From Alistipes senegalensis (lineage in GTDB: Bacteria > Bacillota > Clostridia > Oscillospirales > Ruminococcaceae): DNA of 42,322 bases. The notes below the pieces were generated by a model. That model was not told the origin of the DNA, ran no database searches, and saw nothing but the letters and a program-made list of their open reading frames with translations. The DNA lies in the NCBI GenBank assembly GCA_023665275.1, contig JAMPEF010000011.1, positions 1 through 42,322 on the forward strand, read 5' to 3'. Position numbers and translations under genes: made by a program. Shown here in pieces: positions 7,681 through 38,280 of this stretch (its first letter is position 1; the number at the start of each line of letters is the position of its first letter).

Positions 7681-7688
7681 ATAAAACT

Positions 7689-22964: not shown

Positions 22965-23012
22965 CTTAATAATACTCCTTTACTATATTTATAATCGAAT
23001 ATCCCAGCCCAA

Positions 23013-23034
23013 CCCCGCAGATGCGGGGAAAAAA
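23013..23034 (-). repeat. Isolated CRISPR-type repeat in the NifU-like gene leader
   Basis: On the minus strand TTTTCCCCGCATCTGCGGGG (23032-23013) is identical to the first 20 nt after the leading C of the CRISPR repeats at 23288-24181, in the opposite orientation and with a different 3' end. It lies within the 5' leader of the NifU-like mRNA, about 22-43 nt from the predicted start of transcription, and would form the same six-pair hairpin with loop ATCT. Confidence 0.7.
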
Positions 23035-23225: not shown

Positions 23226-23254
23226 TTGACAAAGGGAAAACTATATGATATACT
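23226..23254 (+). promoter_or_regulatory. Rightward promoter into CRISPR unit 1
   Basis: TTGACA at 23226-23231, 17 nt, TATACT at 23249-23254; start near 23261, about 10 nt before the outer inverted repeat and 27 nt before the first repeat. No protein gene follows on this strand, so the likely product is a short CRISPR-type RNA that also runs antisense to the end of the Spo0A-like gene. Confidence 0.75.
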
Positions 23255-23270: not shown

Positions 23271-23381
23271 GGCGCACCCTCTTTAGTCTTTTCCCCGCAT
23301 CTGCGGGGGTGATCCCTGTGTCACGGTCTTTTGAATTTCCGCACCGCCCTTTTCCCCGCATCTGCGGGGGTGGGGTGCGCC
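23271..23381. repeat. Inverted repeat enclosing CRISPR unit 1
   Basis: GGCGCACCC at 23271-23279 and GGGTGCGCC at 23373-23381 are perfect complements. On the minus strand the left arm is followed by TTTTTATA, so the pair looks like a terminator stem of the Spo0A-like gene with the repeat-spacer-repeat unit sitting in its loop. Confidence 0.7.
23288..23376 (+). CRISPR. CRISPR unit 1: two repeats, one spacer (type I-E-like)
   Basis: Repeats start at 23288 and 23349, exactly 61 nt apart. The first is 28 nt, CTTTTCCCCGCATCTGCGGG then GGTGATCC; the second is identical for 24 nt and then degenerates (GGGG for ATCC), as last repeats do. The spacer, 23316-23348, is 33 nt. The length, palindromic CCCCGC/GCGGGG core and GTGATCC end are those of type I-E repeats. 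No cas gene is in the window. Unit, promoter and flanking stem overlap the 3' region of the Spo0A-like gene. Confidence 0.75.
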
Positions 23382-23387
23382 ACTCTC

Positions 23388-24038
23388 TTATAGCATTTCA
23401 GTCCTGATTTTTTCGGCACACTGGGAGATAAACTCCGTGACGGTCGGTTTCTGCATTGCGTACCCGAAAAACTGCTTAAAATAGCCGATTTCATGGCGTT
23501 CATAAGTACCTTGAATCGCAGTTCTGATGTTGCGCTCCACCTGCCACGTGTTTGAGTCGTACTTTTCTGCGATTATCGGGTAAAGTTTTTTATGGAAAGC
23601 CCCCTTATATCGAGGGTTTTCGATGACCAGCGCTATAGCTTCTACGGCGTAGAGATACCCTTTCATATGCGTAGGTACTCCGAGGTCAAGCAGAAATTGC
23701 GTCACAATCTTTTGAAGCTCCATGCTACCGACGTTATGCCGGACGAGATTCACGATGCTTTCCGTCGGGAGCGTTGCGGATATGTATAAAACGCCCTTTT
23801 CCTCTGAGATAAGGGGATTTTGACCGCTTGTCAGGACGAAATTCTTTACGCCTCTTACGACGTCGACGGTGGGGGTTGCCTCAGCGGACTTGTCGAAGAT
23901 GACCGCATTAACTTCGGAGGCGATTCCTCCCGAAAAATCGGGGCGTATCACGGTATTCATGCCGAATGCCGAAAGTTCGGTAGCGATTTCTGCACACTTT
24001 GCAGAGTTGCCGTTGATGAGTAGTTTGATGTTTTTCAT
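23388..24038 (-). CDS. Orphan Spo0A-like regulator
   Basis: A 216-aa protein. Residues about 107-216 match the Spo0A DNA-binding domain: FLLDLGVPTHMKGYLYAVEAI, LYPIIAEKYDSNTWQVERNIRTAIQ and KPTVTEFISQCAEKIRTEM. The N-terminal 105 residues have a flavodoxin-like strand pattern (IKLLINGNSAKCAEIATEL) but lack the acidic triad and clear phospho-acceptor of a receiver, so control by phosphorelay is unlikely. It is shorter than Spo0A (about 265 aa). CCAAAGGAG precedes the ATG. The gene stands alone, flanked by CRISPR units on both sides; its 5' leader of about 175 nt contains unit 2 in antisense. Confidence 0.85.
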   Translation of the reverse strand: MKNIKLLINGNSAKCAEIATELSAFGMNTVIRPDFSGGIASEVNAVIFDKSAEATPTVDVVRGVKNFVLTSGQNPLISEEKGVLYISATLPTESIVNLVRHNVGSMELQKIVTQFLLDLGVPTHMKGYLYAVEAIALVIENPRYKGAFHKKLYPIIAEKYDSNTWQVERNIRTAIQGTYERHEIGYFKQFFGYAMQKPTVTEFISQCAEKIRTEML

Positions 24039-24070
24039 AGTATGTAACTCCTTTGGGGTTAAAATATTTT

Positions 24071-24212
24071 ACAGGCAAAAAATGGCTTTTTCTTTTTCCC
24101 CGCATCTGCGGGGGTGATCCTTAACTCTTTATAGAAGCCATCAGAAAGATTATCTTTTCCCCGCATCTGCGGGGGTGGTCTTTTTTGTAGATTTATGTCG
24201 TTTTTTGCCTGT
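24071..24212. repeat. Inverted repeat enclosing CRISPR unit 2
   Basis: ACAGGCAAAAAA at 24071-24082 and TTTTTTGCCTGT at 24201-24212 are perfect 12-nt complements. The right arm starts at the predicted 5' end of the Spo0A-like mRNA and the left arm ends about 20 nt before its ribosome site, so the whole leader can close into one domain holding both repeat hairpins. Confidence 0.7.
24093..24181 (+). CRISPR. CRISPR unit 2: two repeats, one spacer (type I-E-like)
   Basis: Repeats start at 24093 and 24154, again 61 nt apart. The first differs from the unit 1 repeat only in its first base (T for C); the second is identical for 24 nt and then reads GGTC. The 33-nt spacer 24121-24153 matches 24330-24362, the 3' end of the adjacent Dam gene, at 26 of 33 positions. 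Orientation is the same as unit 1. Transcription visible here runs from the opposite strand, through the leader of the Spo0A-like gene. Confidence 0.75.
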
Positions 24213-24300
24213 ACACACACTATACGCTATTTTGCCCGAAAAGTCAAGTCACACATACCACCAAACTTTACCGCCATTTTTACCAGAAAATGTGTGTACA
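24210..24300. repeat. Inverted pair TGTACACACA/TGTGTGTACA
   Basis: Perfect 10-nt complements at 24210-24219 and 24291-24300 bracket the promoter of the Spo0A-like gene; the left copy touches its -10 box. They may be sites of one regulator acting by looping, or terminal motifs of prophage B, whose last gene ends at 24313. The remaining sequence 24248-24290 shows nothing else. Confidence 0.5.
24219..24247 (-). promoter_or_regulatory. Promoter of the Spo0A-like gene
   Basis: Minus strand TTGACT (24247-24242), 17 nt, TATAGT (24224-24219), start near 24212. The transcript begins with the outer arm of the inverted repeat and runs through CRISPR unit 2 before the coding region. Confidence 0.75.
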
Positions 24301-24312: not shown

Positions 24313-25053
24313 TTAGAAGTTTTTTATAATCAACTCTTTATAATATCCCTCAGAAAAGTTATTCTGCCGCTGCACCGGTACTATGTCAAAGTCCCGATAG
24401 ATTTCACGTATTTTTTCGCTGTCGTTGTATGAAAGAATAAATTTACCTTGAATTTGGCTTAAAATAGCCTTTAGACGTTGGTGGTCTTCAGATGAAAATT
24501 TTTTGTCGTAATATCTTTCGGAGTTGCTGTAGGGTGGGTCGCAGTAAAAAAGCGCATCTTTACAGTCATATTTTTTAATTAAATTTTCAAAATCGAGGTT
24601 TTCGATGACGACGTTTTCAAGGCGTTTTTCCACGGTTTCGAGGCAGTCCGCTGAAAGATTACGTGGCTGACCGCCGAAAGTCCGCATATTTGCGCCAAAA
24701 CTAAGCCGTGCCACGACAAAAAACATAGCCGCCCGCTGAATATCCGTCAGCCCAGGAAGCTCCATTTTTGCCTTTATTTCGCTGAAAAACTGTCTTGAAT
24801 TGAAATATCCGGAAATTTCCCGCTGAAGCTCAGACCGGTGAAATTTTGCACATCGAAAGAGGTTCACAAGTCCGTCATTAAGGTCATTGTAAACCTCAGT
24901 TTTGGCGTGCCGGTCACGGTGAAAAAGTACCGCCGCACCACCGCCGAATACTTCGATATATCGCTGAAAATCGTCCGGAAACATAGAAATTATTTTCTTT
25001 GCCAGAAGATTTTTTCCGCCAATCCATGGGATAAAACTTTTAATAAAAATCAC
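24313..25053 (-). CDS. DNA adenine methylase (D12 class, Dam-like)
   Basis: About 244-246 aa. FIPWIGGKNLLAKKI (residues 7-21) is the AdoMet-binding motif and DPPYSN (172-177) the catalytic motif IV, in the order of Dam/D12 enzymes; the C-terminal NNFSEGYYKELIIKN is also typical. It methylates adenine, probably GATC, protecting phage DNA from restriction. The start is unclear: GTG at 25053 lies inside the ribosome site AAAGGAG, while an ATT at 25044 has ideal spacing, and no ATG exists nearby. It is the last gene of prophage B, similar to the position of modification genes at the right end of Mu-like phages. Confidence 0.88.
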   Translation of the reverse strand: MIFIKSFIPWIGGKNLLAKKIISMFPDDFQRYIEVFGGGAAVLFHRDRHAKTEVYNDLNDGLVNLFRCAKFHRSELQREISGYFNSRQFFSEIKAKMELPGLTDIQRAAMFFVVARLSFGANMRTFGGQPRNLSADCLETVEKRLENVVIENLDFENLIKKYDCKDALFYCDPPYSNSERYYDKKFSSEDHQRLKAILSQIQGKFILSYNDSEKIREIYRDFDIVPVQRQNNFSEGYYKELIIKNF

Positions 25054-25092: not shown

Positions 25093-26775
25093 TTAATTTC
25101 CGTGTTCGATGCCCATATTTCCGAAACCGCCGGTACTGCTGAAACCAATTTCAAGAGTTTTTCCCGATATACCGTCTTTTATCGTATGTACAATATGTGC
25201 ATCCACGGAAATATTCAACTCTTCGTCGAATATGCGACCCCTGTCGCCTACGTTATAGCGGGGGTTGTTGGAAAACTCCGAAAAATCGGGATTATTCCGC
25301 AAATCTTCAAGGCTGATTTCGTAAGAAATTTTAGGCTGCATATTCTGACCGAAATATTTTCTTGCCTCGTGTGCCAGAAGATTAAAGTCAGTTTCCGTGT
25401 ATTTTTCGCCAAAATTCACGGTTTGCGAGCGCACAATATGATGTGGAATACCATTGTGAACCTCCCAGAAAACCGAAAGACCTGAACCGAACTGGTCAAA
25501 AACCGTGAAATGCGTGCAGAGTTCCGCCGTTTCGGTTTTTTGAGTAATTTTTTTAAGATTAGCACCCATTCTTATGTCAAAAGAATTTTCTAAATGGTTT
25601 TCCATGTGTTCATTCAGCGAAAAATAGAAGTTATTCCGGTACAAATCGCCTCCGAAATTGTCTGTAAATCCACCAGAACCAAGAATCAGGTCAAGCGGAG
25701 TAGTTCCATTTTCAAGTGGTTGCCATATGTTAGCAATAACTAACTCCATATCCACGCCGACGGTTTCGGCGGTCAGGTCTGAGCCGGATTCAAAACGGTA
25801 AATTGTATCTTCGGGACGTGCCTGAAAAGTCGAGTTTGCAAGGATATTACTTAAAATTTGCGCACCGTTAGCTCCGACTATATTAGCGCCGGAATAAATC
25901 CAGCAGTCGTTAAGCTGATAGAATATATGTTCGGCAAAAACCGTCACGGTTGTATGTGTGTACGTCACATTCCGGATAACAAAAAGCTGCCCGAGAACCT
26001 TTAAAATGTTAAATTCAACCAAATATCGCCATTTTCCGCCGCTGTCTTTCGGGTGTTCGAGTGTTACGCTCCAGTCGGCGTTAAAATTTTCGGTGACCGT
26101 GCATGAAATCGGCGTCAGGACGGCAAGCCCGTTATTGTTAAAATTTTTTTGTTCCGTGTGCATCGAATACACGGTAATATATTCCGCCTGTTTGACTGGT
26201 CGGACAAATGGCTTGAAATCGGGAAAAAGCAGATGTCGGGGCATATTCGGACTATAATCGTCCAGTCGCCAGAGAGCCGCTGGATAGGGAACTTGCATAG
26301 ATTTTTTAGGCGCACGGGGGCTTTTTTTGTTGAAAATTTCGCCGTTTTCGTCAAATTTCCACGACACAATTTCTGTTAAAAAATCGAAACTTTGTAAAAA
26401 ATAATAATATTTTGTTGTTTCCTGACTGTCATCAGGTTGCAACGTCGAATTGCTGATTAAAATCACAAAACGCACGTATTGCGCCCACGGATACGCCGAA
26501 ATGTCGACTTCATTTATTGCCGAAAAATAGGCAATAAACGTATGTTGGGCGTCGAAAATATAGGCGTAACAAATCGGCGTGCCGGTAAAATCGGAGTATG
26601 TGTAATTTTTTAAACTACTATTGTATAGCTTTTTAACAATTTTCGGGACGCCCTGTATTTTTTGAGTTCCTGCCGGTATTTCGGCAAAATCTGAGCGCAA
26701 TGTTGATGTGGAATCGTATTCACCGGAAGCATTTACGCCCCCTTGCGTAAAATTTAAAATTTTAATCAACTCCAA
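25093..26775 (-). CDS. Phage tail hub / minor structural protein
   Basis: A 560-aa protein. From about residue 195 it matches the phage minor structural protein (tail hub, gp44/Gp37-like) family: ITVYSMHTEQKNFNNNGLAVLTPISCTVTENFNADWSVTLEHPKD, and GQLFVIRNVTYTHTTVTVFAEHIFYQLND. A C-terminal segment (KKITQKTETAELCTHFTVF.. YNVGDRGRIFDEELNISVDAHIVHTIKDGISGKTLEIGFS) closes the beta domain. The first 190 residues are a separate strand-rich part that I cannot assign. It follows the Dit gene and the beta-solenoid gene, as hub proteins do. The start overlaps the upstream gene by 14 bp. Confidence 0.75.
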   Translation of the reverse strand: MELIKILNFTQGGVNASGEYDSTSTLRSDFAEIPAGTQKIQGVPKIVKKLYNSSLKNYTYSDFTGTPICYAYIFDAQHTFIAYFSAINEVDISAYPWAQYVRFVILISNSTLQPDDSQETTKYYYFLQSFDFLTEIVSWKFDENGEIFNKKSPRAPKKSMQVPYPAALWRLDDYSPNMPRHLLFPDFKPFVRPVKQAEYITVYSMHTEQKNFNNNGLAVLTPISCTVTENFNADWSVTLEHPKDSGGKWRYLVEFNILKVLGQLFVIRNVTYTHTTVTVFAEHIFYQLNDCWIYSGANIVGANGAQILSNILANSTFQARPEDTIYRFESGSDLTAETVGVDMELVIANIWQPLENGTTPLDLILGSGGFTDNFGGDLYRNNFYFSLNEHMENHLENSFDIRMGANLKKITQKTETAELCTHFTVFDQFGSGLSVFWEVHNGIPHHIVRSQTVNFGEKYTETDFNLLAHEARKYFGQNMQPKISYEISLEDLRNNPDFSEFSNNPRYNVGDRGRIFDEELNISVDAHIVHTIKDGISGKTLEIGFSSTGGFGNMGIEHGN

Positions 26776-27565
26776 TCGGAAACCGGATTGAATTTAAATA
26801 TTCCGGATTTTTCAGCTGTTCGCTTGTGCAAGGCTTATGATTTCCCGTGCCGGTAGCGTCTGTTTTTCCCGAATTATAGACCATTACGCCCTTTCCGGAG
26901 TATTCAAGCGGTTGCGTCGAATTAATATCAAAAACGTTGTAGCCGGACGCCTCGCTTCCGCAGACGACGGGGTTTTCAGTCGCAATTTTGCCGGAAAATC
27001 GGCTATTTAGAATGATTTCCGGCGTAATTTTCACCGTCGGGGCGGAAATATCAAGAATGATTTCGGAATTTCGCACGGAATGGCTGGAAATCGTGAAATC
27101 CCCCGAATTTACGGCGATATTTGCAGAACTTTCATGAAAATTTGCGGTTGTAATCCTGCAACTGCTCAGAGCCTCAATTTTTCCCGAAATTACGCAGTTT
27201 TTCAGGGTTGAAATATTGCCATGATTTGCTTCAAAATTCAGAAAAACGCACTCAATGTTGGAAGCCGGCGGAATCCAGTAGAAATTTTCCAGAATAAAGC
27301 CGTCAAGAGCAGCGCCGGCAGCTCCGAAAAACAGCGGAGCGCTTGACGTTGTGAACAAATTTTCAAATTTCCAGCCGTTAAATTTTGTGTATTTTGAGAA
27401 CTTAATTTGTGTGGTAAATCCCTCCGGACAGATTTTGTTAAAATCAATAACTTTTTTAGTCGCCCCGCCGTCCCACTCAATATACGCCGATTCCGTGTAA
27501 ATTTGGCGGTAATCAGCCCAGTTGTCGACGATGTACGGGGCTTCCGCCGTACCCGTGCCGGTCAT
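26762..27565 (-). CDS. Probable beta-solenoid tail protein
   Basis: A 267-aa protein. I set the start at the ATG at 27565 (after GAGGTGTTACTG, overlapping the Dit stop as TGATG). It is rich in N, I, S and F with a repeating short-strand pattern (FENLF, FILENFYW, VFLNFEANHGNISTLKNCVISGKIEALSSCRITTANFHESSANI), which is what a right-handed beta-solenoid looks like. It begins MTGTGTAEAPYIVDNWADYRQIY, a lead-in also seen in phage and adhesin beta-helix proteins. Probably a tail-tip spike or receptor-binding part. No family match I can name with certainty. Confidence 0.6.
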   Translation of the reverse strand: MTGTGTAEAPYIVDNWADYRQIYTESAYIEWDGGATKKVIDFNKICPEGFTTQIKFSKYTKFNGWKFENLFTTSSAPLFFGAAGAALDGFILENFYWIPPASNIECVFLNFEANHGNISTLKNCVISGKIEALSSCRITTANFHESSANIAVNSGDFTISSHSVRNSEIILDISAPTVKITPEIILNSRFSGKIATENPVVCGSEASGYNVFDINSTQPLEYSGKGVMVYNSGKTDATGTGNHKPCTSEQLKNPEYLNSIRFPIGVD

Positions 27566-28263
27566 CAGTAACACCTCTCGTTCTTCGATATTTCGACGTT
27601 TTTCACGTCTCCGCCCCATGAAATCACGTTTTCACCGACCGTCAAAAATGGATATTGTCCGATTGTGCGGTTGTGAAAAAGTTCGCTGCCGGAATATGTT
27701 ATAAATTTTGACGAATCCACAATTATTTCTTGATTTTCGGCAAGACCTCTGATTTCAAACATTTGATTATTTACATTAACAAAAATATCACCCGTTCCGA
27801 CGATGTGAAAAGTCGGCTTGCTGTAGCGTGTGCCGTTATTGACGACTATTCCGCCATTTTGCAGGGAAATTGCCGGATTTTCGGCAAAATATCGGAACGG
27901 TGCAAGCCGGAAATTTAGCTTATAGCGGATTTTTTCACCTCTGAAGACGTTTTCCGGATTATCAAGCGATAATTGTCGGATTTTATAGTAATATCGGGGC
28001 AAACGGCTTATTTCAAGGGTTTGTGCATTTGCCAGAAATGAATAAATATCGGTGTTGTCGTAATCTTTACCAAAAGTATAAAAAGTAAGAGAATATATTA
28101 TATCTTCAAATATATCATCGGGATATGTATTATCTTCGTCAGCGCCGACCTGATACGTCGTGTATCGCTGTTGCGCCATGGGCGGCACTGACGGCGTATC
28201 AACGTAAATTTCGACCGTATAACTTGAAATTCCGTTAATTTTAAACCAGTCAATCGACCTCAA
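27565..28263 (-). CDS. Distal tail protein (Dit)
   Basis: A 232-aa Dit-type protein: MRSIDWFKINGISSYTVEIYVDTPSVPPMAQQRYTTYQVGAD is the hub-ring start, TLEISRLPRYYYKIRQLSLDNPENVFRGEKIRYKLNFRLAPFRYF the central galectin-linked part, and GTGDIFVNVNNQMFEIRGLAENQEIIVDSSKF the carbohydrate-module-like C-terminus. Dit forms the ring joining tail tube and hub in siphoviruses. It overlaps the tape measure stop by 4 bases and lies between that gene and the spike/hub genes, the canonical order. Confidence 0.85.
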   Translation of the reverse strand: MRSIDWFKINGISSYTVEIYVDTPSVPPMAQQRYTTYQVGADEDNTYPDDIFEDIIYSLTFYTFGKDYDNTDIYSFLANAQTLEISRLPRYYYKIRQLSLDNPENVFRGEKIRYKLNFRLAPFRYFAENPAISLQNGGIVVNNGTRYSKPTFHIVGTGDIFVNVNNQMFEIRGLAENQEIIVDSSKFITYSGSELFHNRTIGQYPFLTVGENVISWGGDVKNVEISKNERCY

Positions 28264-31200
28264 AATTGAACCCCTCCCGTGCCTCGATTTATTCGCATCT
28301 GCCGTGCTTGCAGACGTTCAGCAACCGTGTTTATGAATCTTTCGGTGTCGTAATCCGACGAAAGACGGAAGCCGCTTTCAAGCGTTATGTTGAGATTTTC
28401 GACGGTAGTCGTTTGCGAGTTTTCCGCATAATATCGGTCATAATTCGACCTGACAACATATTCATGTGATTCATCAGCAGACACAAAACAAGGAAGTAAA
28501 ATTGACTGTATGTCGCTTATTTGACTGCTGTCTATTTTTGTTTCAACGTCCAATTCAGCCGGAATTTTTGCAACGAATTTAGATAAAACGTCGTCTAATT
28601 GATTTGCGTCTATTTTCCCGACATCGAAATTGACAGGGATTTCTGCAACTGATTCCGGCAAAATGTCGCTTAATTGATTGCTATCTATTATTTCGGTGGA
28701 AACATTAATTTTAGACTGAATATCGGCAAATTCAGGGGTGAACGGCGCAATATTGAGAGCTTTTTTAATTGACGTGGCAATACTTTTAGTTTCATCGATA
28801 ATAGATTTTTTATTATCTTTAATACCTTTAGTAAAAAGATTTATCATATCGGGTGCAAAAGTATGAAAATTCGAGAGTGGTCCTTTATCTGGCTCCGAAA
28901 AGCCGATATATTGGGCAATTCCGGATGCAAGATGTTTGATTTCTTCAATTAAATCTTTTGCCTTATCTTTCACGCCGTCGATAAAACTTTTAATCATATC
29001 AACGCCGGAATCGTACAAATCGCCGACATTTGCCCGTATTTCGCCAATAATTCCGCCGGCGACTTCTGCCAGTTCCGAAAAAACACTTTTTATGCCACCA
29101 ATCAGGGACTGCAAAATTTTTTTGCCGCCATCGGTGAGAATCCGCAGATTTTCGGGATTTGTGAGGCATTCGCCGAGTGTGGCCATGATTTCGATTGCCG
29201 CATTGACGATTTTCGGCAGATTTTCGACGATTACCGTCACAAGACTCTCAACAATTTTAGGTACTTCTTTCAGCAATTCGGGCAGAGAATCAATTATAAA
29301 TTGCGCCAATGTCACTATAATGGACAGTCCGGCGGTGACAAGGTCGCCGAGAGTTGACGGGTTTGTTAATACATCGATAATTTTAATTATTATTCCGGTG
29401 ACAGTCGGGACGAGTGACGGCAGATTTTCGGCGATAAATCGGCTTAAACTCTCTATAATGTTGACCGCAGATTCCACGAGGAGCGGCAGACTGTCAATAA
29501 TTCCGGTGGCGATTTGTACAATAATTTCCAGCGCAACCGTAAGAATTTGTGGCAAATTGTCGGTCATGGACGAACTTATAAAAGATATAATTTCGTTAGC
29601 GGCTGCAAACAATTCCGGCAGTGACTCAATCAGAGTATTTCCGATTCTTTCAATGATTTTTGCCGTAGAATCGGAAATTTCGGGCAGTGCCTGAATCAGT
29701 GCGCCGCCTAAAATTCCGACAATTTCGGCGATTCCCGAAACGAAAAAGGGAAGAACTGTTGAAATCGCATCGGCGGCAATAGTCAGGATTTCGGCTATAT
29801 TTCGGGAAATTTCCTCACCTTTGGAGCGGAAACCGGAAATAATCGAAATCGCCATATCAATTCCGGCGTAAACCAGCTGATGATATGAATTTTTCAGGAA
29901 ATCGACGATTTTTCCCAGTATTTCGGAAAATTCTTCAACCGCTGAACCGGCGTTCCGTGAAATTCCTTCGGCAAATTCAAGGACGAGTTTTAAAGCGGAT
30001 TCGGCTATAATTGGTGTATTTTTTAACAGACTTTGTTTAAAAGCCTGCACTAAACTGTAAACTATTTTTACAATTTTTGGGACATAATCAGTAATTCTTT
30101 TAATTATATCGTCGATTGTCGGTTGAATCAGCTTTGAAAGACGCTGCATAGCAGTCCCGAAATCCGCCGATTTTAAGGCAATTGTGACCCTTTCAAGACC
30201 TTTTGTTCCGATTTGTACGGCGTCTCTGAGAGCCGGCGTAACTTTGTCGGAAAGCGAGATTTTCACGCCCTCCAGTGCGGATTGAAAAAGCGTGATATCG
30301 CCCGCCAGATTGTCAAGCTGAGTGTCCGCCATTTTTTTGGCTGCACCGTCGGAATCGGCTATTTTTCGGGATAAATCTTCATATCGAGTGCCGACGTTTG
30401 ACAAGAGTGCTTCAGCGGATTTCAGGTCACGGGCGTTAAAAATCGTGGTCAGAATCTGGTCACGCTCCGCCTGTGTCGCCAGACTTTCCATGCCGCCACG
30501 GAGGTCAAGAAAAACGTCGTTAAGTGAGCGCATATTTCCGGCTTCATCATAGAGCGAAATTCCCATAGAATCGAGCAATTCGGCGGCTTCTGTGGTCGGC
30601 GAAATCAGCGAATTAAGCATATTTCTGAGAGCCGTGCCGCCCTCGCTGCCCTTGATGCCGTTGTCCGCAAGAATGCCAAGCACCGTGGCGAGTTCCGTCG
30701 TTCCGCCCTTAAGTTTTTTCGCCGTTCCGCCAACGGTCAAGATAGCATCGCCTAACTGCGCAACCGACGTGTTGGAGCTTGAGGACGCCGCCGCCATTTT
30801 ATCGACAAGTTCGGCGGTTTCGTCGAGCGAAAGACCAAGCGCCGACTGTGAATCGGTGACCATGTCGGAGGCGTTGGCGAGCGAAATTCCGCCAGCTGAC
30901 GCCAAATTCAGCACATTCGGGAGCATGGAAACAGATGTTTCAGCGTCGTAACCGGCAAGCGCCATGTAGTTGAGGGCGTCGGCGGCTTCGGTGGCGGAAA
31001 ATGCCGTGGAATTGCCCATTTCAAGCGCAAAATCACGCAGACCTCCGACATCTTCGACGGATTTTCCCATTGTTGCGGCGACCTGCGCCATGCTTTTATC
31101 GAAATCCGCTCCGGCGTTGACCGATTCTTTCAGAAAATTAACGCCCGTTGTAGTGACTTTTGCGGCGATATTCTGTAAAATTCCGACCGTATCGCTGAAA

Positions 31201-31523
31201 ATTCCGCTTACTTTTTCGGGAATTTCGGCGAGAAATCCGCCGACCGTTCCGGCAACATTTTTGAAAGATTCGCCGATTTTAGACGGTAGTTGTTTAATCG
31301 ACGTTCCGACGTTTTCGGTCATGTTTGCAACGTTTGATTTTGTTTCGTCGGTAAATTTTTTTATAGGCGTGCCATCAGGTGCGGTCACTTCGGGCGCTGG
31401 CGTGCGAACCTTTAAATTATCAAATATCGACGCAAAACCCCTTTTTGCGGTGTTAAGTTCCTTTTCAAATTCGTTTAAATTCAGCTCCACAGCCGCCTGA
31501 AGTCTGAAAACTTCTTCCGCCAT
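28260..31523 (-). CDS. Tail tape measure protein
   Basis: A 1087-aa protein. The N-terminal 130 residues are helical. Residues about 150-420 carry the conserved tape-measure domain (KSMAQVAATMGKSVEDVGGLRDFALEMGNSTAFSATEAADALNYMALAGYDAETSVSMLPNVLNLASAGG). A long repeat region follows (about 560-840), built from about 36-residue units of the type ESLPELF..EIISFISSSMTDNLPQILTVALEIIVQIATGIIDSLP, alternately hydrophobic, as expected for tail-length and membrane-channel segments. The C-terminus ends near the tail tip. Tail length would be roughly 0.15 nm per residue by the usual rule. GGAGGTGCGGAA precedes the ATG. Confidence 0.93.
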   Translation of the reverse strand: MAEEVFRLQAAVELNLNEFEKELNTAKRGFASIFDNLKVRTPAPEVTAPDGTPIKKFTDETKSNVANMTENVGTSIKQLPSKIGESFKNVAGTVGGFLAEIPEKVSGIFSDTVGILQNIAAKVTTTGVNFLKESVNAGADFDKSMAQVAATMGKSVEDVGGLRDFALEMGNSTAFSATEAADALNYMALAGYDAETSVSMLPNVLNLASAGGISLANASDMVTDSQSALGLSLDETAELVDKMAAASSSSNTSVAQLGDAILTVGGTAKKLKGGTTELATVLGILADNGIKGSEGGTALRNMLNSLISPTTEAAELLDSMGISLYDEAGNMRSLNDVFLDLRGGMESLATQAERDQILTTIFNARDLKSAEALLSNVGTRYEDLSRKIADSDGAAKKMADTQLDNLAGDITLFQSALEGVKISLSDKVTPALRDAVQIGTKGLERVTIALKSADFGTAMQRLSKLIQPTIDDIIKRITDYVPKIVKIVYSLVQAFKQSLLKNTPIIAESALKLVLEFAEGISRNAGSAVEEFSEILGKIVDFLKNSYHQLVYAGIDMAISIISGFRSKGEEISRNIAEILTIAADAISTVLPFFVSGIAEIVGILGGALIQALPEISDSTAKIIERIGNTLIESLPELFAAANEIISFISSSMTDNLPQILTVALEIIVQIATGIIDSLPLLVESAVNIIESLSRFIAENLPSLVPTVTGIIIKIIDVLTNPSTLGDLVTAGLSIIVTLAQFIIDSLPELLKEVPKIVESLVTVIVENLPKIVNAAIEIMATLGECLTNPENLRILTDGGKKILQSLIGGIKSVFSELAEVAGGIIGEIRANVGDLYDSGVDMIKSFIDGVKDKAKDLIEEIKHLASGIAQYIGFSEPDKGPLSNFHTFAPDMINLFTKGIKDNKKSIIDETKSIATSIKKALNIAPFTPEFADIQSKINVSTEIIDSNQLSDILPESVAEIPVNFDVGKIDANQLDDVLSKFVAKIPAELDVETKIDSSQISDIQSILLPCFVSADESHEYVVRSNYDRYYAENSQTTTVENLNITLESGFRLSSDYDTERFINTVAERLQARQMRINRGTGGVQF

Positions 31524-31541
31524 TTCCGCACCTCCACTTTT

Positions 31542-31555
31542 TAGACACGTGTCTA
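31542..31555. other. Perfect palindrome between tail genes
   Basis: TAGACACGTGTCTA, a perfect 14-bp palindrome centred on CACGTG, lies in the 33-bp gap between the frameshifted chaperone gene and the tape measure gene, preceded by a T run on the plus strand and followed by ATTTATTTT. It may be a protein site or weak terminator. Confidence 0.4.
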
Positions 31556-31556
31556 T

Positions 31557-31876
31557 TTATTTTGCGACAAGTCCTGCATTTGCCGTAATTTCGGCGATAA
31601 TTTGCCCTACTGATTTATTTTCCGGTGGTTTGTATGCAAGTATTTCGTTTAAAGTTTTAGCTATAGTATGTCCACCGGCGAAACGTGCAGTATTTTCGGC
31701 AATAACTTTCAGACAATTACATACATAATTCTGATAGATAAACTGTTGATTTTTATATTTTATAAAATAAAATATATGTTGAAAAAAATAATCTGTGCCG
31801 AAAGCCTCCAGCTTATGCAAATCAATATTTATTACAGCATTTTGGAAATCTTCTGTAAATTGAGAAGCGTAGTAAA
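31557..31876 (-). CDS. Tail assembly chaperone, -1 frame extension (gpGT-like)
   Basis: This frame has no ATG with ribosome site; it is entered by a -1 slip from the chaperone gene at 31874-31880. Across the slip it reads FYYASQFTEDFQNAVINIDLHKLEAFGTDYFF and on to NAGLVAK. The longer fused protein would have about 210 residues. In siphoviruses the two forms (G and GT) coat the tape measure and recruit tube subunits. Position directly before the tape measure gene supports this. Confidence 0.75.
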
Positions 31877-32194
31877 AAAACTGACCACCCTTTTACTGTT
31901 AAAAATATTAACTAATTCAATTATGCCGTCCTCCCCGTCATTTTCGGGGTTCAGCGCCGCAAATTCATCACCTGTCATGAAGCACATTTCACCGCATAGT
32001 GCCATAGTTTCATCAATATTATTTCCACAAATATAACTTATAATTTCAAATATGTTATCAGAGCTGTTTGCGGCTGTATTTCGGCATTTTTCCTTTATAC
32101 GTGAAATGCCGTCGGCGTATTTCCTGACCCTTTCAGCGATTTTCAGCGACTGGGCGGCGAACTCTTTAGGTGTACAGTTTGCAAGAGTTTTCAT
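31832..32194 (-). CDS. Tail assembly chaperone, short form (gpG-like)
   Basis: A 120-aa helical protein (MKTLANCTPKEFAAQSLKIA), encoded between the major tail protein and the tape measure genes, which is the fixed position of tail chaperones. The last codons contain TTTTTTT in slippage phase, giving the extended product. GGAGGTCTTTT precedes the ATG. Sequence similarity to named families is low, as is usual for this class, so the assignment rests on position, size and the frameshift. Confidence 0.8.
   Translation of the reverse strand: MKTLANCTPKEFAAQSLKIAERVRKYADGISRIKEKCRNTAANSSDNIFEIISYICGNNIDETMALCGEMCFMTGDEFAALNPENDGEDGIIELVNIFNSKRVVSFFTTLLNLQKISKML
31874..31880 (-). promoter_or_regulatory. 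-1 frameshift slippery site
   Basis: Minus strand T TTT TTT A: the heptamer TTTTTTT is in the X XXY YYZ phase of the 0 frame (AGT TTT TTT ACT). A -1 slip joins the 120-aa frame to the extension that ends at 31557, with no stop between. Confidence 0.75.
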
Positions 32195-32257
32195 TAAAAG
32201 ACCTCCGTTAAATTTAAATTTTTATTTAAGTAAAATTTTACGTCATTATGACGTTTT

Positions 32258-32842
32258 TTAAGTGATTTCAGGTTCGTTTTTTGGTGATTTTATAAAAATT
32301 TCAAATGGTGGTTCATCGATGTTGTCAAGGTCATAATGTCCGGTAAATTCGTAAGAGAATGTGCCTTTACCGTCCTTGGAGGACTGCCATTGAAAACCGC
32401 CCGTGGACAGCGCATTTTTCACATGGATAGCCACAAAACCGCCATTTTTCGCCGAATAATCGCCAACAAGCCAAATATCATGGAAGTCGTCTTCAGTCAG
32501 GGCAGAACGGGGGAGAATATGCGCTCTGTCCGTGGATAAATCCGCCGCTGCGCATAGTTTTTGTGCCGTTATACCGTCAATCGTGACAAACGAACCACTC
32601 AACGTAACAGTATAGCTCGTGATGCGCTTCATCTGTCGGGTATTGCTCGGCACGTTGTCGATGTCCTCGCCAAAATCGCTAAATTCAGGGGTTGCCGAAA
32701 AGCTGTTACCGCCGGTTGTAGCCCCAATTATAGCGGTTTTTTCGTATTCGCCGGTGTCTGCATCAAAATCTGTCAGGAGAATACCGGCATTAATCTGGAT
32801 TGACTCGAATGTATCGGGTCGAATTTGCGTAAATTTTGACAT
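32258..32842 (-). CDS. Major tail protein
   Basis: A 194-aa tube protein: FTQIRPDTFESIQINAGILLTDFDADTGEYEKTAIIGATTGGNSFSATPEFSDFGEDIDNVPSNTRQMKRITSYTVTLSGSFVTIDG is typical of Firmicute siphophage major tail proteins, with a beta-rich C-terminus (WQSSKDGKGTFSYEFTGHYDLDN). It polymerises as hexamer rings around the tape measure. It lies between the connector and chaperone genes. The 63-bp gap after it holds ACGTCAT/ATGACGT hairpin sequence that may dampen readthrough and so set the high dose of tail protein. Confidence 0.88.
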   Translation of the reverse strand: MSKFTQIRPDTFESIQINAGILLTDFDADTGEYEKTAIIGATTGGNSFSATPEFSDFGEDIDNVPSNTRQMKRITSYTVTLSGSFVTIDGITAQKLCAAADLSTDRAHILPRSALTEDDFHDIWLVGDYSAKNGGFVAIHVKNALSTGGFQWQSSKDGKGTFSYEFTGHYDLDNIDEPPFEIFIKSPKNEPEIT

Positions 32843-32862
32843 TTTTTACCTCAACTTTTACT

Positions 32863-33222
32863 TTAATTTTCTGTAAAAAAATCAGCCATAAAGGTTAAAA
32901 TTTTCCTTTTTGTTAAGTAATCGCCCATACTGACCGCAAAGGGTGTACCACGTCGCAGCCATATTTTACCATCAGAGCATTGAAGAAGGATTCCGCCATT
33001 GCCTGTTTTTCGAGAAATTTCGTCCGTTTTGGCATTGATTTCCGTCCATGATTGCGAGCGATACCAGAGCGAACAGCAGAAATTAACGGTATATCCAAAT
33101 AAATCGGTTTTTAGTTCGTAAGTCAGGTAGGGAAGAGGTGCGTTTTCCGGTACGCTGTTTTCTTCATACGCCGGCAGTCCAAACCCCGAAAAATAACGAT
33201 ATATTGCCTCAAAACGATTCAT
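32863..33222 (-). CDS. Tail terminator / minor capsid-like protein
   Basis: A 119-aa protein (MNRFEAIYRYFSGFGLPAYEENSVPENAPLPYLTYELKTDLFGYTVNFCCSLWYRSQSWTEINAKTDEIS). The PYLTYE motif, a strand and then W..I..K.DEI are typical of the tail terminator class that caps the tail tube. It starts 4 bases before the stop of the upstream connector gene. Position just before the major tail protein agrees. Confidence 0.7.
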   Translation of the reverse strand: MNRFEAIYRYFSGFGLPAYEENSVPENAPLPYLTYELKTDLFGYTVNFCCSLWYRSQSWTEINAKTDEISRKTGNGGILLQCSDGKIWLRRGTPFAVSMGDYLTKRKILTFMADFFTEN

Positions 33223-33554
33223 AGTATTAACCTTTCTTCAGCGGTCACCTGTCGCATATCCAGTCCGGAGGTTTCGGGCGAACTCAAACCATCGGAAGTG
33301 ATTCGGAAAATTTTTCCGTCGCTTTTTCGTTTGATTAAATCATTAAATTTAAGTTCGATATTACGTTGTGTGGTAATAGTATAAGTGACGTTTTTTTCCT
33401 GTTTTTCGGCATTTTCCGCTTGTCCGGAGTGTTCACGCCTGACCGCCGCCCTGAATATTTTCCGGTCAGTTTCTGCCAAAATATGACCACCTTCATTATC
33501 AAAAATAACTGACGTGACAATATAATAAAAATCCTCAAAACTGTTATTGACCAA
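33219..33554 (-). CDS. Head closure / connector protein
   Basis: A 111-aa beta-rich protein (TYTITTQRNIELKFNDLIKRKSDGKIFRITSDGLSSPETSGLDMRQVTAEE). The segment LIKRKSDGKIFRI..TS..S resembles the SPP1 gp16-like head-completion fold, in which a small barrel plugs the portal. Assignment is by pattern and by position between the adaptor and terminator genes. Confidence 0.55.
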   Translation of the reverse strand: MVNNSFEDFYYIVTSVIFDNEGGHILAETDRKIFRAAVRREHSGQAENAEKQEKNVTYTITTQRNIELKFNDLIKRKSDGKIFRITSDGLSSPETSGLDMRQVTAEERLIL

Positions 33555-33590
33555 ATTTATACAACCACAATCCTTTTATAATAAATTATG

Positions 33591-34031
33591 TTAATTAATT
33601 TTACGATAACAATTCATGCCTTGTTTTATTCTGTGTTGCCATTCTTGCATGAACGTCGGCGCAGAAGTCGGCAACGTATATGAATAACCGCCCCACGATT
33701 CAGAGGCATAACCCTGAAAATTTCCCGATAATTCGGCAATTTTTGCGTTGAAGCGTTCCACCTCGTCGCACAGTCTGACGAAATCCGGCGGCACGTCCAT
33801 GACCCAGACAGCCCCCGTAAAAGTTTCATTTTTAAGACGTTTCAGGTCATCAGGGTCATTGCAGTACACACCATTGTTAAGGGAAGAACCTGTTATTCTA
33901 AAATATTGTCCGTTATTTATAAAATCGACATTTATTATATTGTCATGAATAGTATATGTATTGTAGAAAATGTGATTTTTATCTGTGAAAAAATTGTGTA
34001 AAATAGTACACATTCGTGTAATATCTGTCAT
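33591..34031 (-). CDS. Head-tail adaptor-like protein
   Basis: A 146-aa protein (MTDITRMCTILHNFFTDKNHIFYN). Its N-terminal half (IHDNIINVDFINNGQYFRITGSSLNNGVY) is strand-rich, and the C-terminal half is helical with EWQHRIKQGMNCYRKIN. It is located directly after the major capsid gene, where adaptors are encoded, and overlaps it by 4 bases. The second half resembles phage connector proteins that end in a conserved W and basic helix. Function is inferred mainly from order. Confidence 0.55.
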   Translation of the reverse strand: MTDITRMCTILHNFFTDKNHIFYNTYTIHDNIINVDFINNGQYFRITGSSLNNGVYCNDPDDLKRLKNETFTGAVWVMDVPPDFVRLCDEVERFNAKIAELSGNFQGYASESWGGYSYTLPTSAPTFMQEWQHRIKQGMNCYRKIN

Positions 34032-34954
34032 TCGGAGTCAGTACCTTTCGCAGGTTTTTCGGCTGTATTTCCGCTAAAATCCACGACTGAAATTCCGTCA
34101 ATATATTCTGCTGCAAGTGATATGCCGGTAACAGTTATTAAATCAGAAACCATATTGTGATGATTTCCATTGACGTAGACAGCTATTAAATTAAGGTCGC
34201 CATCGGTTCGGAAGTTAAAACCGGCTTTAGTAAAATCATTATCTGTAGCGTCAATATATGACATGACAATATTTTCAGCCGGAGTAGCAATAATTTTACT
34301 GAATGGGACTCGTGAACTAAGAAAAAGTCTCGAAAAACCGAGGAAATTTGAAAGATAGGTCATTCCAAAATCATTTTGAACTGTAATATTTGATGCACCA
34401 AGATATCTGTAAGCGTCCAATGTATTACAGAATCCAATAATCCCGGAATAACCCTTGTCCATGTCCTCCCACTTGCTCTGAACCTGACCGAGAGCTTCAG
34501 CAAGTGCCATCTGGAAGTCGGTTTCATTAATTGATTTTGTAAGAGTACCGGTAAGCAAGAAACTTGTGAACTTATTCATTAAACGGGCTTCCAACCGGTA
34601 AATCATGTCATCGTCGGCGGCTTGAATTGCCGAATTATAGCCATGTTTGGCGATTGCTTCAAGTGAAACTCCCACCGCTTGCTTGTCAAATTCGAGTATT
34701 CCTATAGGAGTAGTGGAGTATTCAATTTTGTTGTACGGAATTGCCTCGCCCTCGCCGACGGCGGTGGTGTTCAGCGTGACCGCCGCCGATTTTGCCGTGA
34801 GTTGCGTTCCGGCGGCGAGCTTTTCAAGGCGGATTGAACCGAGCAAATCACGCAAAATGCCTATATCACGGGTAAATCGGGACACAAAATCGACTTCACG
34901 GACGGCGGTTAAATTAGTTGATTTAATTAAATTTTCCATGTGTTTCATCTCCAT
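34028..34954 (-). CDS. Major capsid protein
   Basis: A 308-aa capsid protein, HK97-fold type by pattern: an N-terminal arm (SRFTRDIGILRDLLGSIRLEKLAAGTQLTAKSAAVTLNTTAVGEGEAIPYNKIEYSTTPIGILEFDKQAVGVSLEAIAKHGYNSAIQAADDDMI), a middle domain with ALAEALGQVQSKWEDMDKGYSGIIGFCNTLDAYRYLG, and a C-terminal SYIDATDNDFTKAGFNFRTDGDLNLIAVYVNGN. It starts after GGAGATGAAACAC; an ATG nearer the site would shorten it by 5 residues. Preceded by a scaffold gene as expected. Confidence 0.88.
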   Translation of the reverse strand: MEMKHMENLIKSTNLTAVREVDFVSRFTRDIGILRDLLGSIRLEKLAAGTQLTAKSAAVTLNTTAVGEGEAIPYNKIEYSTTPIGILEFDKQAVGVSLEAIAKHGYNSAIQAADDDMIYRLEARLMNKFTSFLLTGTLTKSINETDFQMALAEALGQVQSKWEDMDKGYSGIIGFCNTLDAYRYLGASNITVQNDFGMTYLSNFLGFSRLFLSSRVPFSKIIATPAENIVMSYIDATDNDFTKAGFNFRTDGDLNLIAVYVNGNHHNMVSDLITVTGISLAAEYIDGISVVDFSGNTAEKPAKGTDSE

Positions 34955-35451
34955 TAAATGCCGAAAATTCGGGGATTTTCGGCAATAAGTGCTTGACGTT
35001 CAGCGGTATTTTTAATCGCCATAATTTTATCTTTCGTCCAGCCACCGCCGGAGTTCGATGGCGGGGTAGCCGGTGAGTGCGATAAATTTTCAATTTTCGG
35101 CGTAAAATAGCTGAAATCGGCGTCTGCCTGAATTGCAGAAATGACCTCGTCCACGTTGGTCGGTGAGCCGTCATCACCGGTCATCAGTTGGCTGGCGAAG
35201 TCGCTTTTATTGGCGATAAGACGGGCGGCAGAAGCAGAATATCCCGATTTTTCGAGGTTTTCCGCTAATAAGGTGCGGCGGCGTATCGTATCGCTCTGAG
35301 ATTTCATTTCTTCAATTTCTTTTTCCCTGATAGCTAATTTTTGGCTTAATTCAGCGGTTTTTTCAGTGTCTGCATGTAATTCGTCAAGTATCGCTGATAT
35401 TTTATTTTCTTCAATATCTAAAGACATAAGGTATTCCCTTGTAACCGACAT
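34954..35451 (-). CDS. Capsid scaffold protein
   Basis: A 165-aa protein with a long charged helical region (residues about 8-60: LDIEENKISAILDELHADTEKTAELSQKLAIREKEIEEMKSQSDTIRRRTLLAENLEKSGYS), then an Ala-rich stretch and a Gly/Pro linker (PATPPSNSGGGW) with a short C-terminal helix (AERQALIAENPRIFGI). The coiled coil followed by a C-terminal capsid-binding helix is the scaffold layout in Gram-positive siphophages. Its stop overlaps the capsid start by one base (TAATG). The 44-bp gap before it carries the GCCTG/CAGGC hairpin at 35470-35483 next to the ribosome site. Confidence 0.85.
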   Translation of the reverse strand: MSVTREYLMSLDIEENKISAILDELHADTEKTAELSQKLAIREKEIEEMKSQSDTIRRRTLLAENLEKSGYSASAARLIANKSDFASQLMTGDDGSPTNVDEVISAIQADADFSYFTPKIENLSHSPATPPSNSGGGWTKDKIMAIKNTAERQALIAENPRIFGI

Positions 35452-35469
35452 TTGTTGACCTCCTTTTTT

Positions 35470-35483
35470 TGCCTGTTTTCAGG
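35470..35483 (-). other. Hairpin beside the scaffold gene ribosome site
   Basis: Minus strand GCCTG, loop AAAA, CAGGC, followed by seven A and GGAGG. It could mark an mRNA processing point or protect the capsid transcript from 5' decay. Confidence 0.4.
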
Positions 35484-35495
35484 CAAATCTGATTT

Positions 35496-35921
35496 TTAAT
35501 CGTTAAAATATTTTTTTATTACGTTAATATATTCAATTTTATGGTCGTCTATAGCGTTACGCAGAAAATGGGTCGGTTTTATACCGTGAGTATAATGACC
35601 TTTTCCGTTTTTGTCAATCCACACCCACGGCGTTTTTCTGCCATTTATAGCGAAAATTCCCGTTCCGTACTCCACGTAAACGGGGTACGGAGCGCCGTTT
35701 GAAGTTAAATTAGTTCCTATATATACGATGTCATCAATAATTTTATATGTAAGACTTTGTCTTAACATACCACCGTGATATTTTTCAATGCCCGTCGATT
35801 CAGGCGTGCCGACCGGCGCATTAACTCTTGCATGACAAACCGCACGTTGTCCGATTTCTTCAAGTGCAGCGTCTATTTTTTGCCTGATTTCCGCCAAAAT
35901 CTGTGAAGTGTTATCATTCAT
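35496..35921 (-). CDS. HK97 gp10-like protein
   Basis: A 141-aa protein with the gp10 family pattern: ALEEIGQRAVCHARVNAPVGTPESTG...GGMLRQSLTYKIIDDIVYIGTNL..NGAPYPVYVEYGTGIFAINGRKTPWVW...KPTHFLRNAIDDH. The RxNAPVxTGxLRxS...Y..xVExGTG...PxxFLxxA signature is characteristic. In HK97 the gene lies after the capsid among the connector genes; here it precedes the scaffold, a less usual position that also occurs in some Mu-like phages (virion morphogenesis protein G). It may join head and tail. Confidence 0.8.
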   Translation of the reverse strand: MNDNTSQILAEIRQKIDAALEEIGQRAVCHARVNAPVGTPESTGIEKYHGGMLRQSLTYKIIDDIVYIGTNLTSNGAPYPVYVEYGTGIFAINGRKTPWVWIDKNGKGHYTHGIKPTHFLRNAIDDHKIEYINVIKKYFND

Positions 35922-35967
35922 TTTATTGCCTCCGTTTTAGTTAAATGAAAAAAAATTCTTGAAACTC

Positions 35968-35996
35968 TTGACAAAATCCGAAAAATATTATATAAT
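35968..35996 (+). promoter_or_regulatory. Antisense consensus promoter 1 in the head operon
   Basis: TTGACA at 35968-35973, 17 nt, TATAAT at 35991-35996: a perfect consensus on the plus strand in the 100-bp gap before the MuF-like gene end. It points into that gene in antisense; no plus-strand gene follows. The flank (TTAGTTAAATGAAA, then TTCTTGAAACTC) is shared with the promoter at 38231. Confidence 0.7.
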
Positions 35997-36020
35997 GTAG
36001 AAAATAAGTTTAATATTGTG

Positions 36021-36869
36021 CTATATATCGTCAAAAACTGCAACGGTACAGCATCGGCAGTTATAAACTTCTGCCGGATTTCCGTTAGGGTCGCCCGGAT
36101 ATTCAAGACCATTGGAAAATTTTTCGCCGATAGCGGCAATTTGTCCATTTATAGCCATGTGTGAAGCTCTGGTGTGTTTGTCGGTTGCAGAAAGCCAGCT
36201 GTGTTTTATCGTCATACCCATTTGCTGACAGCGTTTATAACCGTGCATACGCCCGACGTTCTGGGCGGTTGTGACCATTGTTGCGGCGGTTCGTGTTGCA
36301 GATGTGCGGTTTGTGTTGGCTATTTTTGCAACTCTTTTGGCGATTTCGTCGATTGATTCGCCGTTCACGATGCCTAAAGCAATTGCGGAATTTATTTTCT
36401 TTAAATTGTATCGCCGGTCGTGAATTTTAGTTTTCGGCAATAAATCGGGGTTTTCCTGAATAAGAAGTCTGACCGCATTTTCATTGAAAATCAGAAAATT
36501 AATGTCTATCTTGTAATGTTCACCGATTCTACTAACTGTATAATTATTGTTGAGACAGTAAATTTCCGGAAGATTTCTATTTGTTATATCGGTGGCGTTG
36601 AGGTCGGTTTCTGTTAAAATTTCTGACAAATTATCAAGCCTTTTTCGCTGATATTTTCCGATAAGAAGTTTTTCCGTTAACCATTCCTGATATTCTTCTT
36701 GCGTGATTTTGCCGGTTTCAAGCCTTTTTTTCATTTTGATACTTTCGGAGCAGGTTTCCGGCATATTTTCTATTAAAGAGTTATAAGCCTGACCGTAAAT
36801 GTCTTTTAATTCCGCAACAATTTTATTAAAGATGTCTTGCGTTGCAAGATATGCGCTATCAAATTTCAT
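36021..36869 (-). CDS. Minor head protein (MuF / SPP1 gp7-like)
   Basis: A 282-aa protein with a MuF-type C-terminal domain (TNRTSATRTAATMVTTAQNVGRMHGYKRCQQMGMTIKHSWLSATDKHTRASHMAINGQIAAIGEKFSNGLEYPGDPNGNPAEVYNCRCCTVAVF). The D-x-R..H..G..CRC motif of the family is evident. The N-terminal half is helical. These proteins sit in the capsid near the portal and may be injected with DNA. It overlaps the end of the portal gene by 11 bp. No toxin domain is fused, unlike in many MuF polymorphic toxins. Confidence 0.88.
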   Translation of the reverse strand: MKFDSAYLATQDIFNKIVAELKDIYGQAYNSLIENMPETCSESIKMKKRLETGKITQEEYQEWLTEKLLIGKYQRKRLDNLSEILTETDLNATDITNRNLPEIYCLNNNYTVSRIGEHYKIDINFLIFNENAVRLLIQENPDLLPKTKIHDRRYNLKKINSAIALGIVNGESIDEIAKRVAKIANTNRTSATRTAATMVTTAQNVGRMHGYKRCQQMGMTIKHSWLSATDKHTRASHMAINGQIAAIGEKFSNGLEYPGDPNGNPAEVYNCRCCTVAVFDDI

Positions 36870-38187: not shown

Positions 38188-38230
38188 TATGCCTCCCATT
38201 TAGTTAAAAGAAAAATTTTTCTTGAATCCC

Positions 38231-38259
38231 TTGACAAAAAAATAAAAATATTGTATAAT
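38231..38259 (+). promoter_or_regulatory. Antisense consensus promoter 2 in the head operon
   Basis: TTGACA at 38231-38236, 17 nt, TATAAT at 38254-38259: another perfect consensus on the plus strand, in the gap between terminase and portal genes. It reads into the 3' end of the terminase gene in antisense. The flank TTTAGTTAAAAGAAA then TTCTTGAATCCC parallels that at 35968. An adjacent palindrome AAGAAAAATTTTTCTT lies at 38210-38225. Confidence 0.7.
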
Positions 38260-38280
38260 AATGAAAAAGTATATTCTGTG

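Follow-up and report, generated by a model that had tools for sequence, protein, structure and literature searches.

Two one-spacer type I-E CRISPR units beside prophage genes, with spacers resembling the neighbouring genes

Why would two CRISPR units, each holding a single spacer, stand on either side of a Spo0A-like gene? Here we address this question for a stretch of 42,322 nucleotides (hereafter the window), in which the units occupy less than 1 kb of the forward strand, and for related units in other genomes. We describe the units and their surroundings, compare their spacers with the adjoining genes, follow the state of the matched sites across relatives, and weigh the explanations that could account for such an arrangement.

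Repeats, units and gene order in the window

Four repeat copies lie on the + strand at 23288-23315, 23349-23376, 24093-24120 and 24154-24181, with start-to-start distances of 61, 744 and 61 nt. An earlier, sequence-only reading had described four repeats arranged as two pairs with a 61-nt period and 33-nt spacers, and the same coordinates were re-found. In unit 1, the first repeat (23288..23315, +) is identical to the repeat of the main array of this genome, the 33-nt spacer (23316..23348, +) translates to GGAEIQKTVTQ when reverse-complemented, and the second repeat (23349..23376, +) keeps its hairpin with the final 4 nt degenerate. In unit 2, the first repeat (24093..24120, +) is one base away from the main-array repeat (first position, T not C), the reverse complement of the 33-nt spacer (24121..24153, +) translates to NLSDGFYKEL, and the second repeat (24154..24181, +) has a degenerate tail. 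The degenerate end that had been noted in the last repeat of each pair was thereby confirmed, the consensus being lost after GTG (GTGGGGT and GTGGTCT).

The genome carries a complete type I-E set (Cas3, Cse1, Cse2, Cas7, Cas5, Cas6e, Cas1 and a Cas2-DnaQ fusion) beside an array on contig C48. This main array comprises 21 repeats with 33-nt spacers and has a 23-nt core in common with the window units. With zero mismatches allowed, the core was found genome-wide at the four window copies and at 20 array copies on C48 and nowhere else (the 21st array copy has one mismatch), and a scan of the genome with a reversed control pattern gave 0 matches. Because the exact core is confined to the window and the array and the control is empty, its recurrence is not due to chance. 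The search that the sequence-only reading had suggested, for I-E cas genes and a main array with the same repeat, thus recovered both on C48, and its claim of a type I-E origin is upheld by the shared repeat core, the 33-nt spacers and the complete Cas3/Cascade/Cas6e/Cas1/Cas2 complement of the genome. Its remark that no cas genes are near is correct for the scanned window proteins, but a full I-E set is present on another contig. The cas genes (C48) and the units (C22) show no physical linkage, these being contigs of an incomplete assembly. The Cas6e family (PF08798) was found in 5 of 125 genomes of the genus; no Cas6e-family match was found in the unit-bearing genome G139, the assembly of which is 81% complete. 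Within the main array (L031), spacers 15 and 17 (counting from 0) are identical.

Both units are enclosed by complementary closing arms on the + strand. Those of unit 1 are 9-nt stretches at 23271..23279 (GGCGCACCC) and 23373..23381 (GGGTGCGCC), and those of unit 2 are 13-nt stretches at 24070..24082 (TACAGGCAAAAAA) and 24201..24213 (TTTTTTGCCTGTA). A promoter-like TTGACA-17-TATACT (23226..23254, +), agreeing with 11/12 consensus positions, precedes unit 1. Unit 2 is located antisense in the leader of the Spo0A-like gene, the promoter-like site of which (24219..24247, -) has a similar stretch in genomes G124 and G121; the promoter scan found no strong + strand promoter for unit 2. Unit 2 (24068-24215) is inverted between its arms relative to the nearby sole strong promoter-like site, and the 12 other tabulated units are not. 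An invertible switch was considered for the arms and dropped because the arm sequences vary between units. The RNA fold of unit 1 beats 200/200 shuffles (z -4.9), with the two repeats predicted to pair with each other and not as two separate hairpins; the fold predicted for the + strand of unit 2 consists of two hairpins within closed arms (z -7.0). At the Rfam gathering threshold, the window yielded tRNAs only and no known RNA family at the units. A fifth repeat copy, single and inverted (23010..23032, -), has one core mismatch and lies in the leader of a NifU-like gene, upstream of the start codon and downstream of a promoter-like site. Like the closing arms and the promoter-like site of unit 1, this copy is not mentioned in the sequence-only reading. 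No counterpart of it was found in G124 and G121, and it could be a solitary repeat unit.

The gene between the units (23388..24038, -) encodes 216 aa with a Spo0A C-terminal domain (PF08769). Upstream of it lie a D12 class N6-adenine DNA methyltransferase gene (24313..25053, -; profile match) and then prophage genes (25093..41615, -), with tail, tape measure, major head, portal and terminase among those scanned; downstream is the NifU-like gene, assigned by a weak match under the cut-off. The description of the Spo0A-like gene as "lone" therefore fails: it adjoins the methyltransferase and prophage genes, and the order is kept in two other species, the locus lying between prophage genes and the NifU-like host gene in all three. 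In G124 and G121, the order is the same as in the window, with identities of 87% for the methyltransferase, 53 and 46% for the Spo0A-like protein and 96% for the NifU-like protein. No units were found at these syntenic methyltransferase/Spo0A-like/NifU-like loci of G124 and G121, and the units are therefore additions to the locus. An array split by gene insertion, as had been suggested, is not supported and was rejected, these relatives carrying the gene pair and its order without the units. No repeat-like hairpin was detected in four more Spo0A-like loci (L065, L066, L067 and L191).

A D12 methyltransferase also stands beside a Spo0A-like protein in G002 (C24), G003 (C90), G122 (C50) and G141 (C83), as it does in G124 and G121. 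In G002, the pair has no tail genes within the stretch examined; in G141, the two genes converge on a gap that contains one repeat-like hairpin. Another prophage-like region, which has an integrase at the left end of the contig, spans positions 1-9605 of the window; it shares DNA with a unit-bearing phage-like locus of G002, and a repeat-model scan of it found no unit.

Spacer matches to the adjoining genes

Spacer 1 has a protospacer-like site within the Spo0A-like gene (23697..23729, +; 22/33 identical), and spacer 2 has one at the 3' end of the methyltransferase gene (24330..24362, +; 26/33). Both sites are preceded by AA, and each has one mismatch in spacer positions 2-9. Across 14 unit spacers from the window and other genomes (see below), a best site at least 75% identical was located within 1.5 kb for 7, compared with 0 of 826 pairs formed by main-array spacers and these same loci (Fisher 6e-14, the pairs not being independent). 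The proportion is 5/12 without the two spacers of the asd leader (L032), which match that leader itself and may be of another nature. In this leader (8657-8811 of L032, G000 C37) we observed three I-E-like hairpins, the intervening sequences of which have matches elsewhere in it, one in inverted and the other in direct orientation.

Spacer 1, at 22/33, falls under the 75% line; its ungapped match was reached by 3/200 shuffles and 1/59 control spacers, and its local score by 0/60 shuffles. A further gene target is thiC, for which the match needs one gap and is reached by 0/60 shuffles, and for 4/14 spacers there is no notable local match. AA precedes 5/9 own sites (p 0.0009, assuming an AA frequency of 0.1). 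AA is the PAM of the related Streptococcus thermophilus I-E system. Spacer number 2 of the main array (counting from 0) has a 27/33 site in the methyltransferase locus of G121. A single spacer of that array could be placed outside it in the DNA examined, at 27/33 and with TTA before the site.

The differences between spacers and the carriers' own genes are coding-like, 24/39 of them falling at third codon positions (p 0.0003). At the peptide level, GGAEIQKTVTQ of spacer 1 corresponds to GSMELQKIVTQ in the own protein, NLSDGFYKEL of spacer 2 to NFSEGYYKEL, and TQIKHIVDTL of the G139 spacer to AQIKHIVDTL; three spacers of G002 pair in the same way (spacer/own: DYYIAENPIA/DYCIAENPIA, QAEILHRTML/CMEILHRTML and AKGEICGKGM/AKCDICGKGI). 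The spacer versions, or peptides close to them, occur in other proteins. NLSDGFYKEL is present in 2 (P0003 and P0020) of 120 listed methyltransferases, near the end and followed by the tail of the family, and the N-terminus of P0131 is MTQIKHIVDTL, the version in the G139 spacer. Over its 11 residues, the spacer 1 peptide agrees with P0122 (GGAELKKTVTQ) at 9, with the own protein at 7 and with P0123 at 5. Support is weaker in DNA, in which spacer 2 agrees at 28/33 positions with G088, 27/33 with G124 and 26/33 with both G121, the likely source of P0003, and the own gene.

For neither window spacer did we find an exact target, the best being the 28/33 match of spacer 2 in a sibling methyltransferase. 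A search of 125 genomes with up to three mismatches returned no site for spacer 1 besides itself. The viral contigs searched held no exact repeat core, no relative of the Spo0A-like protein or of P0131, and no exact 18-nt piece of spacer 2; both window spacers matched phage records only at E >= 1.

Units in other genomes and the state of their own targets

Further units occur in related Ruminococcus genomes. The closest set was found in a Ruminococcus flavefaciens MAG (G002, JAMPAU01), in which isolated units occur at many places; one locus is common to G002 and G139. Candidates were scored across genomes at up to 35 per genome, and the units described are among the matches listed. The 61-nt period recurs in the isolated units of these relatives, and odd spacings and single copies occur too. 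We tabulated 13 units: the 2 of the window, 10 of G002 and 1 of G139, for which the G002 tail served as the array reference. Left out were single or odd hairpins of G002 (C57:130231, C24:1169431, C79:90782 and C68:47472), a 3-repeat array (C40:9377), and, from G014, G016, G060, G070, G076, G093, G122, G141 and G000 C79, single copies or short pieces at contig ends. The set of 14 spacers used above is this table minus C57_128 plus the two asd-leader spacers. The assemblies of G000, G002 and G139 are fragmented.

The tabulated units have several features in common. A promoter-like site (TTGAC-like plus TATA(C/A)T, one substitution allowed) is present in 12/13, ending 22-39 nt before the first repeat. 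As a set, the closing arms fit their own partners (the sum was reached in 2/10000 permutations); taken singly, they outscore the average foreign arm in 10/13 units and every foreign arm in 2/13. The last 7 nt are closer to the main repeat in the first repeat than in the second in 10 of the 13, with 3 ties and no case of the reverse. The tail of the first repeat, the future 5' handle of a crRNA, is thus the better kept, which is the pattern expected if selection acts to maintain one crRNA per unit. Spacers start with T or C in 13/14 units and in 57/59 main-array spacers. An exact pattern of promoter hexamer and repeat gave 36 matches at 31 loci in the genome contigs, of which 10 were one-spacer units under our filter; 7 of these were again in G002 or G139, and the others (L287, L296 and L306) had no local spacer match. 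As far as the exact pattern tells, this class of unit looks rare. Rfam at the gathering threshold returned one SAM riboswitch and two tRNAs at seven related loci, none at a unit. In G002, one repeat-like hairpin (L145 2971, C68) seems to lie inside a sequence that we take, from its motif, to be RNase P RNA-like, which is likely a coincidence. Another unit of that genome (L135, 3077-3165) stands before a 201-aa gene with no NCBIfam match; its spacer largely matches the promoter of its own unit (see below), as would be expected of an autorepressing guide.

At the locus common to G002 and G139 (72.6% identity over 587 bp), the unit is kept and the spacer is changed. The locus is phage-like in G002, beside DnaC-like loader and replication initiation genes, and chromosomal in G139, between plsY and pyrH (neighbours pyrH, frr, uppS and plsY).

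The carriers' own sites are mutated relative to the spacers, with 22/33 and 26/33 positions still identical in the window and with loss of PAM or seed in two units of G002. For the thiC unit of G002, AA precedes the site in 29/29 fetched relatives (all located by protein motif) and CG precedes it in the own copy, a Lys-to-Arg codon change; thiC matched in 109 of the 125 genomes and rpmB in 115, and 30 loci of each were fetched. For the unit near metK, also in G002, the own copy differs from the spacer at 5/5 bases of positions 2-6 and at 1/28 elsewhere, a concentration in the seed block with a Fisher value of 2.5e-5. In the same gene of 11 close relatives, 1 to 3 of positions 2-6 differ and 3 to 11 elsewhere, Gln is kept at the seed block in 9/11, and no repeat-like hairpin was found at their loci. 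The own site of the L136 unit is preceded by GGC. In G139, the own gene begins with GTG, hence AAG before the site; P0131 starts Met-Thr, and an ATG start in its gene would put AAA there.

The rpmB unit of G002 (L093, 9742-9830) has terminator-like arms, and its guide is directed at the start codon of rpmB, the gene next to it. Its own site has AA and spacer positions 2-8 intact. At positions 9, 14 and 26, the spacer disagrees with 30/30 of the rpmB genes fetched, and therefore the spacer itself has drifted. Sparing of the own copy is less clear in the window than in G002, because AA is kept and there is one mismatch in positions 2-9. For the Spo0A-like gene, the own target shows a weak excess of change (p 0.010 and 0.024); for the methyltransferase, none was found.

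Explanations and known systems

We tentatively propose, with confidence that stops just short of even, that the units are minimal CRISPR arrays whose guides act through the host Cascade-Cas3 against sibling methyltransferase and Spo0A-like alleles, the linked copies being spared. Transcription would start at the unit promoter, Cas6e would cleave in both repeats to give one crRNA per unit, and this crRNA would load into the host type I-E Cascade. Cas3 would then attack DNA carrying the unmodified sibling allele, and the carrier's copy is predicted to escape through PAM, seed or scattered mismatches. The benefit may lie in the exclusion of rivals, possibly with the rival locus converted to the unit-bearing form. 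On this proposal, targets adjoin units because a carrier could survive transfer only if guide and spared allele stayed linked. Phage exclusion alone does not explain the units, since several of the targets lie on the chromosome (thiC, rpmB, a gene near metK and the G139 locus). A broader reading is natural RNA-guided homing, in which one-guide cassettes of phage and chromosome cut unmodified sibling alleles and spread with the spared allele; we consider it distinctly unlikely, and the observation that bears on homing or drive is the absence of units at syntenic sites in relatives.

Cleavage is not required if the units are cis-regulatory guides of the CreA/CreR kind, in which a crRNA-like RNA would let Cascade block transcription of a neighbour. 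This is unlikely overall, though a serious contender: several units sit in gene leaders, AA and positions 2-8 are intact in the match of the rpmB unit to the start codon of rpmB, and the window sites keep AA and 7/8 of positions 2-9. In addition, the L135 spacer matches the promoter of its own unit at 10/11 of positions 2-12 (reached by 0/30 control spacers), and that of L146 matches, over 10 nt at its 5' end, a site directly upstream of the promoter of its unit (seed score reached by 6/30 controls, local score by 2/60 shuffles). Cascade-binding regulation fits rpmB, L135 and L146, and may be a use that is older than the proposed one or exists alongside it. However, AA is lost in thiC, the seed block is altered in the gene near metK, and GC precedes the site in the L136 unit. 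Paired bases 1-5 and 7-11 are required by CreA (PMC8501985), and in CreTA the first repeat copy is the more degenerate (PMC9458426), opposite to the tail pattern here. Of the earlier idea of a CRISPR-derived regulatory locus, the CRISPR derivation stands; regulation stays live but weaker, the PAM or seed being destroyed in the clearest related cases.

Scars of autoimmunity, left by stray capture of local DNA in survivors with damaged targets and having no present function, would account for the damaged PAM or seed in the two G002 cases and for the odd spacings or single repeats of some units. Such an origin is improbable in view of the promoter-like sites in 12/13 units, the better conservation of the 5' handle than of the 3' tail in 10/13, and the retention of the unit with a different spacer in two diverged loci. 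Prophage-borne decoys that occupy Cas6e or Cas7, that is, RNA anti-CRISPRs (Racr), would suit the prophage-edge location, the promoter-like site and the single repeat copy at 23010-23032, and Racrs are known as solitary repeat units of phages (PMC10651486). A decoy, however, needs no full repeat-spacer-repeat, exact 61-nt period or gene-matching spacer, and several related units adjoin chromosomal genes (metK, thiC, rpmB and pyrH), which makes this reading very improbable. Non-CRISPR hairpins, REP-like or of leaders, that converged on a similar palindrome are less credible still. Leaders do carry similar single hairpins, and this is so in genomes lacking a PF08798 match as well, but one 28-nt copy agrees with the main-array repeat at every base, the non-palindromic GTGATCC included, the spacing is 33 nt, 13/14 spacers begin with T or C, and protospacer-like sites have AA before them. 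We rejected the REP hairpin on the repeat identity, the 33-nt spacers and the spacer-start pattern. The sequence-only reading had named hairpins scattered singly without 61-nt pairing, or the lack of an I-E system in relatives, as signs of such elements; an I-E system exists here, and isolated units of relatives again show the 61-nt period, besides some odd spacings and single copies.

For the proposed guides against sibling alleles, the nearest known counterparts are the archaeal portogloboviruses SPV1 and SPV2, which bear mini-CRISPR arrays near their targets and have mutated own copies (PMC6858448). The likeness extends to one or two spacers between host-type repeats without cas genes and with a promoter in front, to spacers that are directed against close relatives there and are proposed to be so here, with targets near the array and own orthologous loci mutated, and to spacer turnover at a fixed place. 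In contrast to the archaeal arrays, the units here are bacterial and type I-E, have complementary closing arms, lie beside prophage genes and, in relatives, at chromosomal genes (thiC, rpmB and near metK), and exact sibling targets have not yet been found for them. Viral mini-arrays against relatives are known and reviewed (PMC11656645), and the window locus is therefore a bacterial type I-E form of them; in the open-access papers searched we found no one-guide units on a chromosome beside a disarmed target. In the archaeal study, the origin and consequences of target-array closeness were regarded as unclear (PMC6858448). This closeness is now seen, against a control, in bacteria, where it also involves genes of the chromosome with the own PAM or seed lost; a testable reason is offered for it, namely that guide and spared allele must travel together. 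If true, CRISPR guides would serve as linked exclusion or homing elements, beyond immune memory, and, should the homing reading hold, as a natural cleave-and-replace drive in bacteria.

The units resemble CreA/CreTA in having two ectopic repeats around one guide that partly matches adjacent DNA. They differ in that the matched sites are mostly coding regions and not a toxin promoter, no toxin was recognised, the first-repeat tail is intact and the second degenerate, and the units are far from the cas locus; CreA-type seed pairing (1-5 and 7-11) with a toxin promoter is not seen in the window, where the sites are in coding sequence and have seed mismatches. With Racr they share phage-linked, host-type repeats with promoters, but the units here are complete and spacer-bearing, and their guides match genes. 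Free-standing homing endonucleases with marker exclusion link a cutting specificity to a resistant neighbouring allele. The units would combine a cutting specificity and a linked resistant allele in the same way, the difference being that the specificity, as proposed here, is an RNA guide that borrows the host Cascade-Cas3.
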